32,004 nt of DNA, taken from a virus. The notes beneath the pieces were generated by a model. That model was not told where the DNA came from. It saw only the letters and a program-made list of their open reading frames with translations, and did no database searches. A program made the position numbers and the translations under genes. Below, piece by piece: positions 29,277-32,004 of the stretch (its first letter is position 1; every line of letters begins with the position of its first letter). The DNA is taken from positions 1 through 32,004 of the IMG/VR virus record IMGVR_UViG_3300020378_000018. The stretch is one strand, 5' to 3'.

Positions 29277-30401
29277 TTAGAATGCAGAAGGAGCTGTAGC
29301 ACCAACATATAATTCTACTGCGGCAGCAGGATTTAAGTAATCCGCCCCCATAGCTAGACGTCCCAGAATGACATCACCTTGGTATACCACGGATATGTCT
29401 CCGCTTGTTACCTGTACTTGAGGACCAATAGCCTCAACTACACCAGCAGCTTCCTTCTGGAAGATTAATCCACAAGACTTAGCTCCTACTTCAGCAGTAG
29501 TACCGTAGTCATTGTTGATTCCTGTTGATGCACCTGATGCGTTCTCAAGTGTGTTACCAATTCTGTCGCCCATGTTAGATGGTGAAGTCTTACCTGTAGT
29601 TCCGCCAAATGCAGTACCATATTTGCCTAAGAAAGGAATATTCATAGACTTATAAATGTGGATACCAGCGATCTCTACAACTCCATTACCACCTTGTAGT
29701 GCAGTACCTTGCACGTCTCTATTAACAAGACCATTATTACCAATATCAGTTATGAGGGAATAATATTGTCTTGGGTTGAGGACCGCGCATCTACCTTGGG
29801 AACTCACTCCTTTTTCGTCTAGAGCAGCAGCTGCATCATAGAATGCATTTACTAGGTTGCTCGCAACGTAAGCGTCAGAATCATTAGTTGTAGAACCAAC
29901 TCTGATCTGTGTTCCGCCAGGTTCTTTGAAGTTATTCTTTGTGATTGGAGAAGCACTTCTAGCTCCTCTTGTGATTGCTCTAAAGATTAGGCGATCATAC
30001 TTCTCTGCAAGAGCGTAACCGATCTTACGAGAGATCTCTCCTCTCAACTCGAAGTGCGCTAGTGTTTCATCTAGCTCATACACGAAGGCACTTGAAATTA
30101 ATAGGTCGTCAACAGTTATAGTTTTTTCTGCGACTGGAGGTGCGCCGTCACTGTTACCTAAGATTGAATTTCCAGGGGTATGGAACTCAGCAGTTGTACT
30201 ACCGGTGTAGATGAACTGAAGACTCTTACCGTTCTTCAATGTTCTCTTCATAACCAAGTCACGAGCGATTGCTTCGTGCTGGAAACCCTTAAACATCTCG
30301 CCTGAGAACAGACGAAGGTAAAGTGCTCTAGCGTCACCTGTTGAGTTTGACTGACCTTGACGTGTAAGTGAGGTAGTCAAATCTGATGACTGATGAGCCA
30401 T
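29277..30401 (-). CDS. Major capsid protein (T7 gp10-like)
   Basis: This 374-residue HK97-fold capsid protein starts MAHQSSDLTTSLTRQGQSNS and continues DARALYLRLFSGEMFKGFQH, the standard start of T7-like cyanophage capsids. It also has SSAFVYELDETLAHFELRGE, AEKYDRLIFRAITRGAR and NPRQYYSLITD. T7 gp10A is 345 residues. No Shine-Dalgarno is obvious. A structured leader of about 170 bases precedes it and a strong terminator follows. Confidence 0.97.
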   Translation of the reverse strand: MAHQSSDLTTSLTRQGQSNSTGDARALYLRLFSGEMFKGFQHEAIARDLVMKRTLKNGKSLQFIYTGSTTAEFHTPGNSILGNSDGAPPVAEKTITVDDLLISSAFVYELDETLAHFELRGEISRKIGYALAEKYDRLIFRAITRGARSASPITKNNFKEPGGTQIRVGSTTNDSDAYVASNLVNAFYDAAAALDEKGVSSQGRCAVLNPRQYYSLITDIGNNGLVNRDVQGTALQGGNGVVEIAGIHIYKSMNIPFLGKYGTAFGGTTGKTSPSNMGDRIGNTLENASGASTGINNDYGTTAEVGAKSCGLIFQKEAAGVVEAIGPQVQVTSGDISVVYQGDVILGRLAMGADYLNPAAAVELYVGATAPSAF

Positions 30402-30575
30402 GATATTTGCTTAAAATGTAAAGGTATATTTGCTTGTCTCTTCGATCGAAAAGTTGTGAGTCTTAATTGGACTCGTTTATATTGTGGTCTATCCCACCGT
30501 CTAGACGGCTGATGAGTATCCGCGTACGGGTCAAAAGCCAAATTGAATAGGGAGGACTTGCACCTCCCAGATCGC
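30402..30575 (-). promoter_or_regulatory. Non-coding capsid leader with hairpins
   Basis: No gene is seen here. Reading toward the capsid, the minus strand has a GGGAGG-tgcaagt-CCTCCC hairpin (30550-30568), an ACCCG-tacg-CGGAT pairing, the perfect palindrome CCGTCTAGACGG and a GTGG-gataga-CCAC hairpin. These could be RNA processing or stability elements, or hold the capsid promoter. I see no CCACTTAG copy. Confidence 0.5.
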
Positions 30576-30632
30576 TTAACCGATTATTCTTGTGTAAGCA
30601 ACGCCACGATATACGAAAGTAACTTTCTTCAT
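30576..30632 (-). CDS. 18-residue peptide under riboswitch control (YRGxxY motif)
   Basis: A mini-gene of 18 codons plus stop encodes MKKVTFVYRGVAYTRIIG. Its start has a good ribosome binding site, GGAG with a 6-base spacer. The YRGxxY pattern resembles the short cyanobacterial DUF4278 proteins. In known Downstream-peptide/glutamine-II riboswitches the regulated gene is exactly such a short frame of about 17 codons or more, in Prochlorococcus, Synechococcus and their phages. The peptide may act itself or may mainly set translation and stability of the capsid leader. Confidence 0.85.
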   Translation of the reverse strand: MKKVTFVYRGVAYTRIIG

Positions 30633-30638
30633 GGTTAT

Positions 30639-30702
30639 CTCCATATACCTAAGCCCCGTTCCATGCTTAGGAGTCATGCGTCCCCGAGGGGATGAACGGA
30701 CG
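30639..30702 (-). promoter_or_regulatory. Glutamine-II (Downstream-peptide) riboswitch
   Basis: The minus strand reads CGTTCATCCCC, a tight CCC/GGG hairpin, GGGGACGCATGACTCC and then a 7-pair stem CCTAAGC/GCTTAGG (30671-30665 with 30654-30648). The 10-base loop holds GAACG, which pairs with the 5' CGTTC (30698-30694), giving the pseudoknot of this class. The Shine-Dalgarno GGAG (30642-30639) can pair with CTCC (30673-30670), which overlaps the base of the 7-pair stem, so SD access and aptamer folding compete. Glutamine binding would report nitrogen status of the cell. The assignment is by eye from the remembered consensus. Confidence 0.85.
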
Positions 30703-30705
30703 TGG

Positions 30706-31188
30706 CTAAAAATAATTCACATTACATATAACTCTTCGGTGTGCATCGCTAGTAGTCGTACTATGATGCAACTTTGATGGGTCATGTATTAGTACACGAT
30801 TTGCTACCGAAGAAACTTTTTCTCCTTCGCAATACGTATAACCATCACAAGTGTTTAAATATAAAATCGCACCCTTATGTGAATAATGAAAATCAACATG
30901 ATCTTCATGGATTTTTAATTTAGGAGTGTAAGGATACATATTAAGAATCACTCTTATCAGTGATTTCATGCCAAGGTTTTTCAGTAGAGGAGCAACTACT
31001 TCAATTACATTTGAAATTGGTACGTGATTTTCATAAGCCAAATGACTGTGCATGTAATTATCAAGTGCGTGTTTATCAGTTACGTCTGCAACTGAAGGTA
31101 TGAAATACCAAGGCATATCAGAACTCATTATGTACTTACTAAGTCCTTCAAATATTTCGGGCGGTAAAAAATTATCTATGACTCGCAT
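30706..31188 (-). CDS. 2OG-Fe(II) oxygenase 3
   Basis: This 160-residue compact dioxygenase has iron ligands His94-x-Asp96 (KIHEDH) and His141 (LHHSTTT), with Arg151 or 152 (HRRVICNVNYF) for 2OG. The strand AILYLNTCDGYTYCEGEKV and the segment SVANRVLIHD are typical of cyanophage P4H-like oxygenases. It lies two bases after the one-TM gene and just before the glutamine riboswitch. The substrate is unknown. With its neighbours it forms a metabolic cassette next to psbA, and 2OG itself is the cyanobacterial nitrogen signal. Confidence 0.85.
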   Translation of the reverse strand: MRVIDNFLPPEIFEGLSKYIMSSDMPWYFIPSVADVTDKHALDNYMHSHLAYENHVPISNVIEVVAPLLKNLGMKSLIRVILNMYPYTPKLKIHEDHVDFHYSHKGAILYLNTCDGYTYCEGEKVSSVANRVLIHDPSKLHHSTTTSDAHRRVICNVNYF

Positions 31189-31190
31189 CG

Positions 31191-31502
31191 TTAATAAGAA
31201 GGATCTCCTTCTGGCTCCTTTAATTTTTCTCCAGTTAGAGCTTCTTCTAACGATTCGTATTCTTCTTCTTTAGTCTCAGGTTCAGGTGTAAACCAAGTGA
31301 CCTGAGCTTTTGCTTTATTAGTTTGATGTGGCATGTTATTCCAATGACGTATAACGCCTGAGATGATAAAACAATTAGTTATTAAATAACTGATGAAAAT
31401 AAAAGTACGGGTGATAGCTATAACGTTGTCATAAGATTTAGTCTTATCATCGCTAAAGCTACCAAGAGCGTACTTCCATATAGTCCAAATTTTTTTAGCC
31501 AA
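31191..31502 (-). CDS. One-TM small protein following psbA
   Basis: This 103-residue protein starts at a TTG (31502) that lies inside the psbA end and overlaps its stop by 8 bases. There is no ATG before residue 57, so the TTG start is favoured. A transmembrane segment (about 26-48, [25 protein letters not shown]) separates a basic N-terminus ([20 protein letters not shown]) from an acidic tail ([18 protein letters not shown]). No family is recognised. The tight link to psbA makes a thylakoid or plasma membrane role during infection plausible. Confidence 0.7.
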
Positions 31503-32004
31503 TTTGTGGGGCTGTTAATGCAACTTGTGTTGACTCAGCAGTAGCTAAATCAAGAGGGAAGTTGTGTGCATTCCTTTCGTGCATAACCTCAAAGCCAAGG
31601 TTCTGTCTGTTAACAATGTCAGCCCATGTAGGGATAACTTTGCCATTAACATCTACAACTGACTGATTGAAGTTGAAGCCGTTTAGGTTAAATGCCATTG
31701 TGCAAATACCCATGGATGTCAGCCATATGCCAACAACCGGCCAAGTACCAAGAAAGAAATGTAGAGCACGAGAATTATTGAAAGATGCATACTGAAAAAT
31801 TAATCTACCGAAATAGCCATGAGCTGCAACGATGTTATATGTCTCTTCGTCTTGACCAAATTTATAGCCATAGTTCTGTGATACCTCGTCCGTTGTTTCT
31901 TTAACAATTGAAGATGTAACCAAACTTCCGTGCATAGCAGCGAACAAAGCTCCACCGAATACCCCAGCAACACCGAGCATGTGGAACGGATGCATAAGGA
32001 TATT
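31495..32004 (-). CDS. psbA: Photosystem II D1 protein, C-terminal half (partial)
   Basis: About 169 C-terminal residues of D1 are present; the 5' part lies beyond 32004, so the first Met in view (31995) is internal. Visible hallmarks are [16 protein letters not shown] (a non-haem iron His), [20 protein letters not shown] and the Mn-cluster ligands in [13 protein letters not shown] (His332, Glu333, His337, Asp342 and Ala344 in plant numbering). A cleavable C-terminal extension, [15 protein letters not shown], follows. Phage psbA keeps photosynthesis running while host D1 turns over. Its position upstream of the capsid gene differs from the order I remember for P-SSP7 (after the capsid). Confidence 0.97.

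Follow-up and report, generated by a model that had tools for sequence, protein, structure and literature searches.

A Glutamine-II riboswitch with a YRGxxY micro-ORF that ends inside a tRNA-like structure ahead of the capsid gene in T7-like cyanophages

The segment that separates psbA from the major capsid gene in a T7-like cyanophage is, taken as a whole, quite probably best explained as a class-II glutamine riboswitch that controls an 18-residue peptide, with the capsid gene being served by a leader of its own. Prochlorococcus and Synechococcus are killed in large numbers by T7-like cyanophages, and the virus may read the nitrogen status of its host through such a glutamine-sensing RNA. The conservation of this predicted sensor in the laboratory phages P-SSP7 and S-TIP37 makes the question of their response to host nitrogen directly testable.

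The window, i.e., the whole stretch of DNA that was analysed, is the 32,004-base IMG/VR fragment IMGVR_UViG_3300020378_000018 (positions 1 to 32,004), identified as a T7-like cyanophage by its gene content with P-SSP7 as comparison. On its minus strand the 3' end of psbA is followed by two small ORFs, then by the riboswitch element, the major capsid gene and tail genes. The two genes that delimit the segment are:

31495-32004, minus strand: 3' part of psbA (photosystem II D1; Pfam Photo_RC, E 2.6e-27)
29277-30401, minus strand: major capsid protein gene, 374 aa (Pfam Gp10A-like, E 2.5e-70; PHROG major head protein)

Between psbA and the riboswitch there is also an ORF of 160 aa (30706-31188, minus strand) that matches PHROG 274 (E 1.3e-42) and no Pfam family; the label of PHROG 274, DNA endonuclease V, is putative only for this ORF.

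The aptamer is real and far beyond what chance would give. When the window was compared with all Rfam models (cmscan), Glutamine-II (RF01704) was the sole match above threshold, covering positions 30648-30701 of the minus strand and the complete model (1-60) with 46.7 bits against a cut-off of 33 (E 1.6e-8). The sister model, glnA/glutamine-I, stayed below its cut-off in the window (16.3 bits vs 35), and 14 control genomes contained no place at the RF01704 cut-off and gave zero matches even at E<=0.01. The letters and the Rfam alignment agree in that the CGUUCA, CGCA and CAUGGAACGG blocks of the family, together with its CGUUC/GAACG pseudoknot, are all present. The parts of the riboswitch and of the frame behind it are:

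30648-30701, minus strand: Glutamine-II riboswitch aptamer (cmscan against RF01704, and letters)
30698-30694 / 30661-30657, minus strand: pseudoknot CGTTC / GAACG (letters)
30692-30681, minus strand: hairpin TCCC/GGGA, UCCC/GGGA in the RNA (letters)
30671-30665 / 30654-30648, minus strand: stem CCTAAGC / GCTTAGG (letters)
30639-30642, minus strand: Shine-Dalgarno GGAG, 6 nt ahead of the micro-ORF ATG (sequence)
30576-30632, minus strand: micro-ORF MKKVTFVYRGVAYTRIIG of 18 codons, encoding one YRGxxY module like those of DUF4278 (such an ORF behind 136 of 140 aptamers in phages, coding signature, longer homologue above the DUF4278 cut-off)

A preliminary description had read from the letters a Glutamine-II or Downstream-peptide element lying between a psbA cassette and the capsid gene and regulating an 18-codon YRGxxY frame. 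That reading holds: all the letters that it quoted are found on the minus strand, the covariance-model search that it had proposed as a check returned the class, the Pfam calls of both flanking genes agree with the stated place, and the frame is present at 30632-30576 (minus strand). The RF01704 aptamer and its micro-ORF are thereby members of a known riboswitch class, of which the class and the frame are established and the binding of glutamine and the switching are predicted. The aptamer region by itself folds no better than its shuffles (z 0.29), an outcome to be expected because the folding program cannot model the pseudoknot. Further Rfam matches, to blv_FSE, SNORD57 and Plastid-psbl-rps4, were sub-threshold and judged to be due to chance.

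A YRGxxY frame follows on the 3' side in 136 of the 140 aptamers from viral contigs and isolates (a sample of loci plus isolates that includes a few duplicate window entries), the remaining four running off the end of their contig. With each distinct micro-ORF counted once, the median length is 19 codons (range 13-79), and an SD-like motif was found in 91 of 112 relatives. In the set of 119 different micro-ORFs, all variation at the four motif codons (Y, R, G, Y) is synonymous (for R: CGT 78, CGC 36, CGG 3, AGA 1 and CGA 1), and the entropy at codon positions 1, 2 and 3 amounts to 0.72, 0.77 and 1.35 bits, i.e., there is an excess at the third. Judged by this codon pattern, the micro-ORF is coding and under purifying selection across diverged phages. 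Regarding the peptide, the 18 aa encoded in the window are too short to score against DUF4278 (PF14105), and a 22-aa form of it has no match either; the 35-aa phage homologue L052 reaches 29.9 against a gathering score of 25.3, via the C-terminal end of the profile. The frames behind the phage aptamers agree with the description of the class by Weinberg et al. (2010, PMC2864571), where ORFs of 17-100 aa with a conserved motif stand behind the aptamer in cyanobacteria and marine metagenomes.

The region was found by blastn in 41 phage records, all of them from cyanophages or uncultured marine phages. Five of the six isolates tested (P-SSP7, S-TIP37, S-RIP2, P-SSP10 and NATL1A-7) contain exactly one aptamer copy, located with its micro-ORF between psbA and the capsid gene, and S-B28 contains none. 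The unit is mostly unannotated in these isolates, apart from the longer micro-ORFs of S-TIP37 and S-RIP2, which are listed as hypothetical proteins. For the hosts, the copies were taken from a covariance-model search, because a pattern scan of genome contigs gave mostly chance matches, with a few true Prochlorococcus or cyanophage-like loci. In that search, 6 of 7 genomes, Prochlorococcus among them, had 1-6 copies, all matches but one lying above threshold; the Prochlorococcus genomes have 2-6 each. Among the host targets, every protein that was readable matches DUF4278 and has the YRGxxY-like module two or three times, against once in the phage peptide. A host origin of the aptamer and the micro-ORF is likely from these comparisons.

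Downstream of the micro-ORF, the 175 nt that precede the capsid gene make up a highly structured RNA (30402-30575, minus strand, with a 5' part from 30589), which is present in every T7-like cyanophage leader inspected. Its order is A element, module B, PAL1, hairpin C and PAL2, and the elements beyond the 5' part are:

30507-30541, minus strand: module B, a UUGGC..GCC helix P1 around hairpin P2, with a UACG loop and a conserved AUAC strand (covariation, fold)
30497-30508, minus strand: PAL1, self-complementary CCGTCTAGACGG (palindrome comparison)
30484-30497, minus strand: hairpin C, GUGG-GAUAGA-CCAC (covarying stem, conserved loop)
30441-30450, minus strand: PAL2, palindrome TTCGATCGAA ahead of the capsid start (comparison with shuffles)
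2843-2990 of L277, 3030-3205 of L280 and 2425-2600 of L279: leader copies in relatives (comparison)

The nested pairs of module B were returned by a structure-free scan of all column pairs (unsupervised covariation), and one P2 pair occurs in all four Watson-Crick types, being paired in 37 of 37. Its loop is usually of UACG type across loci, and the same motif is found in Syn5 and P60. PAL1 is a self-complementary 10-12 mer across loci, perfectly palindromic in 121 of 126 relatives with a variable centre (CTAG, CATG, ATAT, CG) that keeps its self-complementarity; this invariance is partly selected, because most loci came from a scan demanding its commonest form, and the variants come from the riboswitch-based scan. 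For those with the sequences CCGTCTGGACGG and CTGTCTAGACGG (L090, L126, L002), self-complementarity depends on G-U pairs, a hint that this site matters as RNA rather than as DNA. Two bases belong both to PAL1 and to the P1 helix, which may form as alternatives to each other. The stem of hairpin C varies (GUAGG/CCUAC, GUGUG/CACAC, GUCUG/CAGAC) around a conserved GAUAGA-type loop. A palindrome of at least 10 nt was present at the PAL2 site in 94 of 126 relatives vs 9 of 126 shuffled sequences; in the relatives it measures 8-16 nt just 5' of the capsid start, and very different sequences share self-complementary centres, which suggests RNA-RNA dimerisation or a symmetric site.

The same order of elements, with little sequence identity, is found in Syn5, which has neither psbA nor a riboswitch nearby, and P60 has the tRNA-like part and module B. 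With its A element, module B, two self-complementary sites and hairpin C, the capsid leader would be a new RNA family: it is a sizeable, strongly covarying RNA that matches no family in a search against all Rfam, and it deserves a family model of its own. Its range may extend to the pelagiphages, given that GACCCCTTGCGAGGGACAATC, 5' of the capsid gene of Pelagibacter phage HTVC019P (L278, 4990-5020), looks like a remote module B. The sequence GGGATAGACCACAA may resemble the start of the T7 phi10 RNA. The idea that the leader element is a repeated promoter of the phage RNA polymerase was rejected, as the window and five isolates each have only a single close copy of it. The capsid leader of Syn5, which shares this architecture, lacks the published Syn5 promoter, ATTGGGCACCCGTAA (PMC3950665).

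Three alternatives occur at the 5' end of the leader, namely a tRNA-like structure, a hairpin whose loop reads CACCUCAGAGUCGG, and a whole tRNA (tRNA-Gly in NATL1A-7 and L145, tRNA-Leu in L129). The window has the first of them:

30545-30589, minus strand: tRNA-like structure without anticodon arm (fold, acceptor covariation, complete tRNAs in its place in relatives)
30589-30585 / 30549-30545, minus strand: acceptor GAATA / TATTC (fold)
30584-30571, minus strand: D-like hairpin ATCG-GTTAAG-CGAT (fold)
30568-30550, minus strand: T arm GGGAGG-TGCAAGT-CCTCCC (fold)
30578-30576, minus strand: micro-ORF stop TAA, inside the tRNA-like structure (sequence)

The window copy folds as drawn, with -15.2 kcal/mol and z -2.58. 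After dereplication to 20 distinct strands, 18 of the 20 acceptor stems have at least four Watson-Crick pairs, compared with a mean of 7.9 and a maximum of 15 when partners were swapped (5000 swaps). It is this covarying acceptor, stacked on an arm with a 7-nt T-loop, that defines the structure as tRNA-like, and the T-loop retains its letters across loci (TTCRANN / TGCANNN). ARAGORN found no complete tRNA in the window, and no Rfam tRNA family matched, hence the designation as tRNA-like only.

The stop codon of the micro-ORF falls inside the tRNA-like structure in all 43 loci where a YRG ORF adjoins it, and it overlaps the alternative hairpin type in none of 11. Stops of other ORFs lie inside the structure in six further loci, among them L132, where the ORF is psbA, and L013, L023, L082 and L186, where it is a membrane ORF; in P60 it is the stop of the scaffold gene that does so. 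The non-YRG cases are biased in that the longest ORF close to the structure was chosen, and the loci counted include relatives that are not independent of one another. The 5' strand of the acceptor (30589-30585) coincides with codons 15-16 of the 18, and a ribosome finishing the peptide would therefore have to open the structure. As a separate observation, in 15 loci (L049, L051, L063, L069 and 11 others) the alternative hairpin of the leader is crossed by a short ORF of membrane type, ending in ..PQ(C/S)R(T/I)S. with the stop just past the hairpin.

How would such an arrangement work? In the preferred explanation, the riboswitch would be contained in a late polycistronic mRNA of the phage, and glutamine would close the pseudoknot and the CCTAAGC/GCTTAGG stem, giving the ribosome access to the GGAG/ATG just downstream. 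High glutamine in the host would then lead to the synthesis of the 18-residue, one-module relative of DUF4278; this ON direction is taken from the type-2 switches of hosts, which are reported to activate expression in response to glutamine and to be associated with DUF4278 genes akin to the gene of IF17; DUF4278 forms the N-terminal part of this inactivating factor of glutamine synthetase (reviewed in PMC6316151). The peptide would most likely act on the nitrogen metabolism of the host, where IF17, the best-known member of the family, binds glutamine synthetase. The micro-ORF ends in the tRNA-like structure with which the separate leader of the capsid gene begins, and a ribosome at its stop codon would melt that structure, while the capsid gene would be served by its own leader. 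As to the expression platform, the preliminary description had noted that the SD GGAG can pair with CTCC: the letters allow this pairing, but it is not conserved, the complementarity over 112 loci having a mean of 3.13 with the own partner vs 3.29 with swapped ones. SD/anti-SD pairing was therefore rejected as the platform, and none is visible by comparison across the 112 loci.

Does the switch act on the capsid gene itself? The preliminary description had proposed that it could tie virion production to glutamine, and in nearly all loci whose flanks are long enough the aptamer does stand 5' of the capsid gene and on its strand. As stated, that proposal found no support: the conserved regulated frame is the YRGxxY micro-ORF, whereas the capsid start lies 175 nt beyond its stop, behind an independently conserved leader. 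Across loci, aptamer and leader are 151 to 1358 nt apart (where psbA is upstream, its distance is usually between 42 nt and a few hundred nt), the spacing exceeding 1 kb with several ORFs in between in P-SSP10 and NATL1A-7, and S-B28 and Syn5 keep the leader without the riboswitch. Because of this gap, the variable distance and the leaders without riboswitch, the capsid gene is probably not a direct target, and its direct control by the riboswitch is very improbable; an indirect link between glutamine and capsid is possible via the tRNA-like structure that overlaps the end of the micro-ORF. Even less credit, to the point of being almost negligible, is given to the aptamer and micro-ORF being a neutral relic of captured host DNA, which the likely host origin and the same aptamer and motif in Prochlorococcus would favour, but which conflicts with an intact aptamer consensus, the purifying selection on the micro-ORF across diverged phages and the fixed position after psbA. 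The T-arm-like hairpin, for its part, might be a mere intrinsic terminator after the psbA cassette, and a pattern scan does list GGGAGGTGCAAGTCCTCCC TATTCAATTT as terminator-like; this is improbable in view of the poor T tract, the T-loop letters retained across loci, the covariation of the flanking acceptor pairs and the whole tRNA-Gly or tRNA-Leu genes that stand in the same place.

More weight, although these are still unlikely, deserve two readings in which the nested stop codon is central. One is that the act of translation, not the peptide, is the product, so that the gated ribosome would cover the 5' strand of the structure and block its processing by RNase P/Z-type enzymes, or some other use. 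It would account for the stop inside the structure (all 43 loci with a YRG ORF, the six with other ORFs and the P60 scaffold gene), for the H-type hairpin, which replaces the structure elsewhere, never overlapping the micro-ORF (0 of 11), and for the complete tRNA genes at the same place in other phages. However, the overlap occurs also with ORFs that have no riboswitch, and compaction alone could therefore give it; moreover, the sequence of the peptide is conserved, which this model does not need, and H-type phages have the riboswitch without the overlap. The other, to which a similarly low probability is assigned, is a metabolite-gated switch between translation and RNA processing: at high glutamine, ribosomes passing along the micro-ORF, the last codons and stop of which make the 5' half of the structure, would keep it unfolded, and under low glutamine it would fold and be cut, which would part the psbA mRNA from the capsid mRNA and determine how stable each is. 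This coupling of glutamine, translation and mRNA processing is proposed because of the nested stop, the fold in the window and the likeness of the Syn5 copy to mascRNA. A tRNA-like part with a nested stop would offer a new possible route by which, in the late operon of a phage, a metabolite could be linked to translation and to RNA processing, and as far as the cyanophage literature was searched, no precedent was found for the nested tRNA-like arrangement and the capsid leader RNA.

Such likenesses deserve a closer comparison. mascRNA, the tRNA-like element of MALAT1, is released by RNase P. It shares with the phage structure the acceptor, a small D part, the T arm and the lack of a normal anticodon arm, but it comes from an unrelated organism, the match of the Syn5 leader copy to its model (RF01684) is below threshold (E 0.011), and the cleavage of the phage structure is putative. 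The tRNA-like domain of tmRNA likewise combines an acceptor and a T arm, its D part being reduced, and the T arm of S-TIP37 gives a sub-threshold tmRNA match; in contrast to tmRNA, the leader structure sits in an mRNA leader and has no tag-peptide frame or tmRNA pseudoknots.

With Glutamine-II (RF01704) of marine picocyanobacteria, the phage element shares the above-threshold aptamer and the short motif ORF downstream (PMC2864571), and it differs in its location between psbA and capsid in a T7-like phage, in the stop within a tRNA-like structure and in a peptide cut to one YRGxxY module, whose commonest form has 13-22 aa. In the same way, the YRGxxY motif is common to the phage peptide and the DUF4278 or N-terminal region of IF17 (gifB), longer homologues from phages align with the C-terminal end of the DUF4278 profile (L052 above its cut-off), and riboswitch control exists also in the host (PMC6316151), whereas the host proteins that were read have two or three modules against one in the phage, where the part of IF17 beyond DUF4278 is absent. 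Phage-borne glutamine riboswitches are known as well from T4-like cyanophages (PMC9602691, PMC9964418) and from methylophage Melnitz and Pelagibacter phage Mosig (PMC9004378); in Melnitz a glnA-type motif is associated with a tmRNA gene, unlike the type II element with its own peptide at the psbA-capsid junction described here.

At the other end of the capsid gene, directly on its 3' side (29261-29246, minus strand), the strong hairpin GGGAGCTTCGGCTCCC TTTTTTTTTA is intrinsic-terminator-like and recalls the T7 terminator after gene 10.
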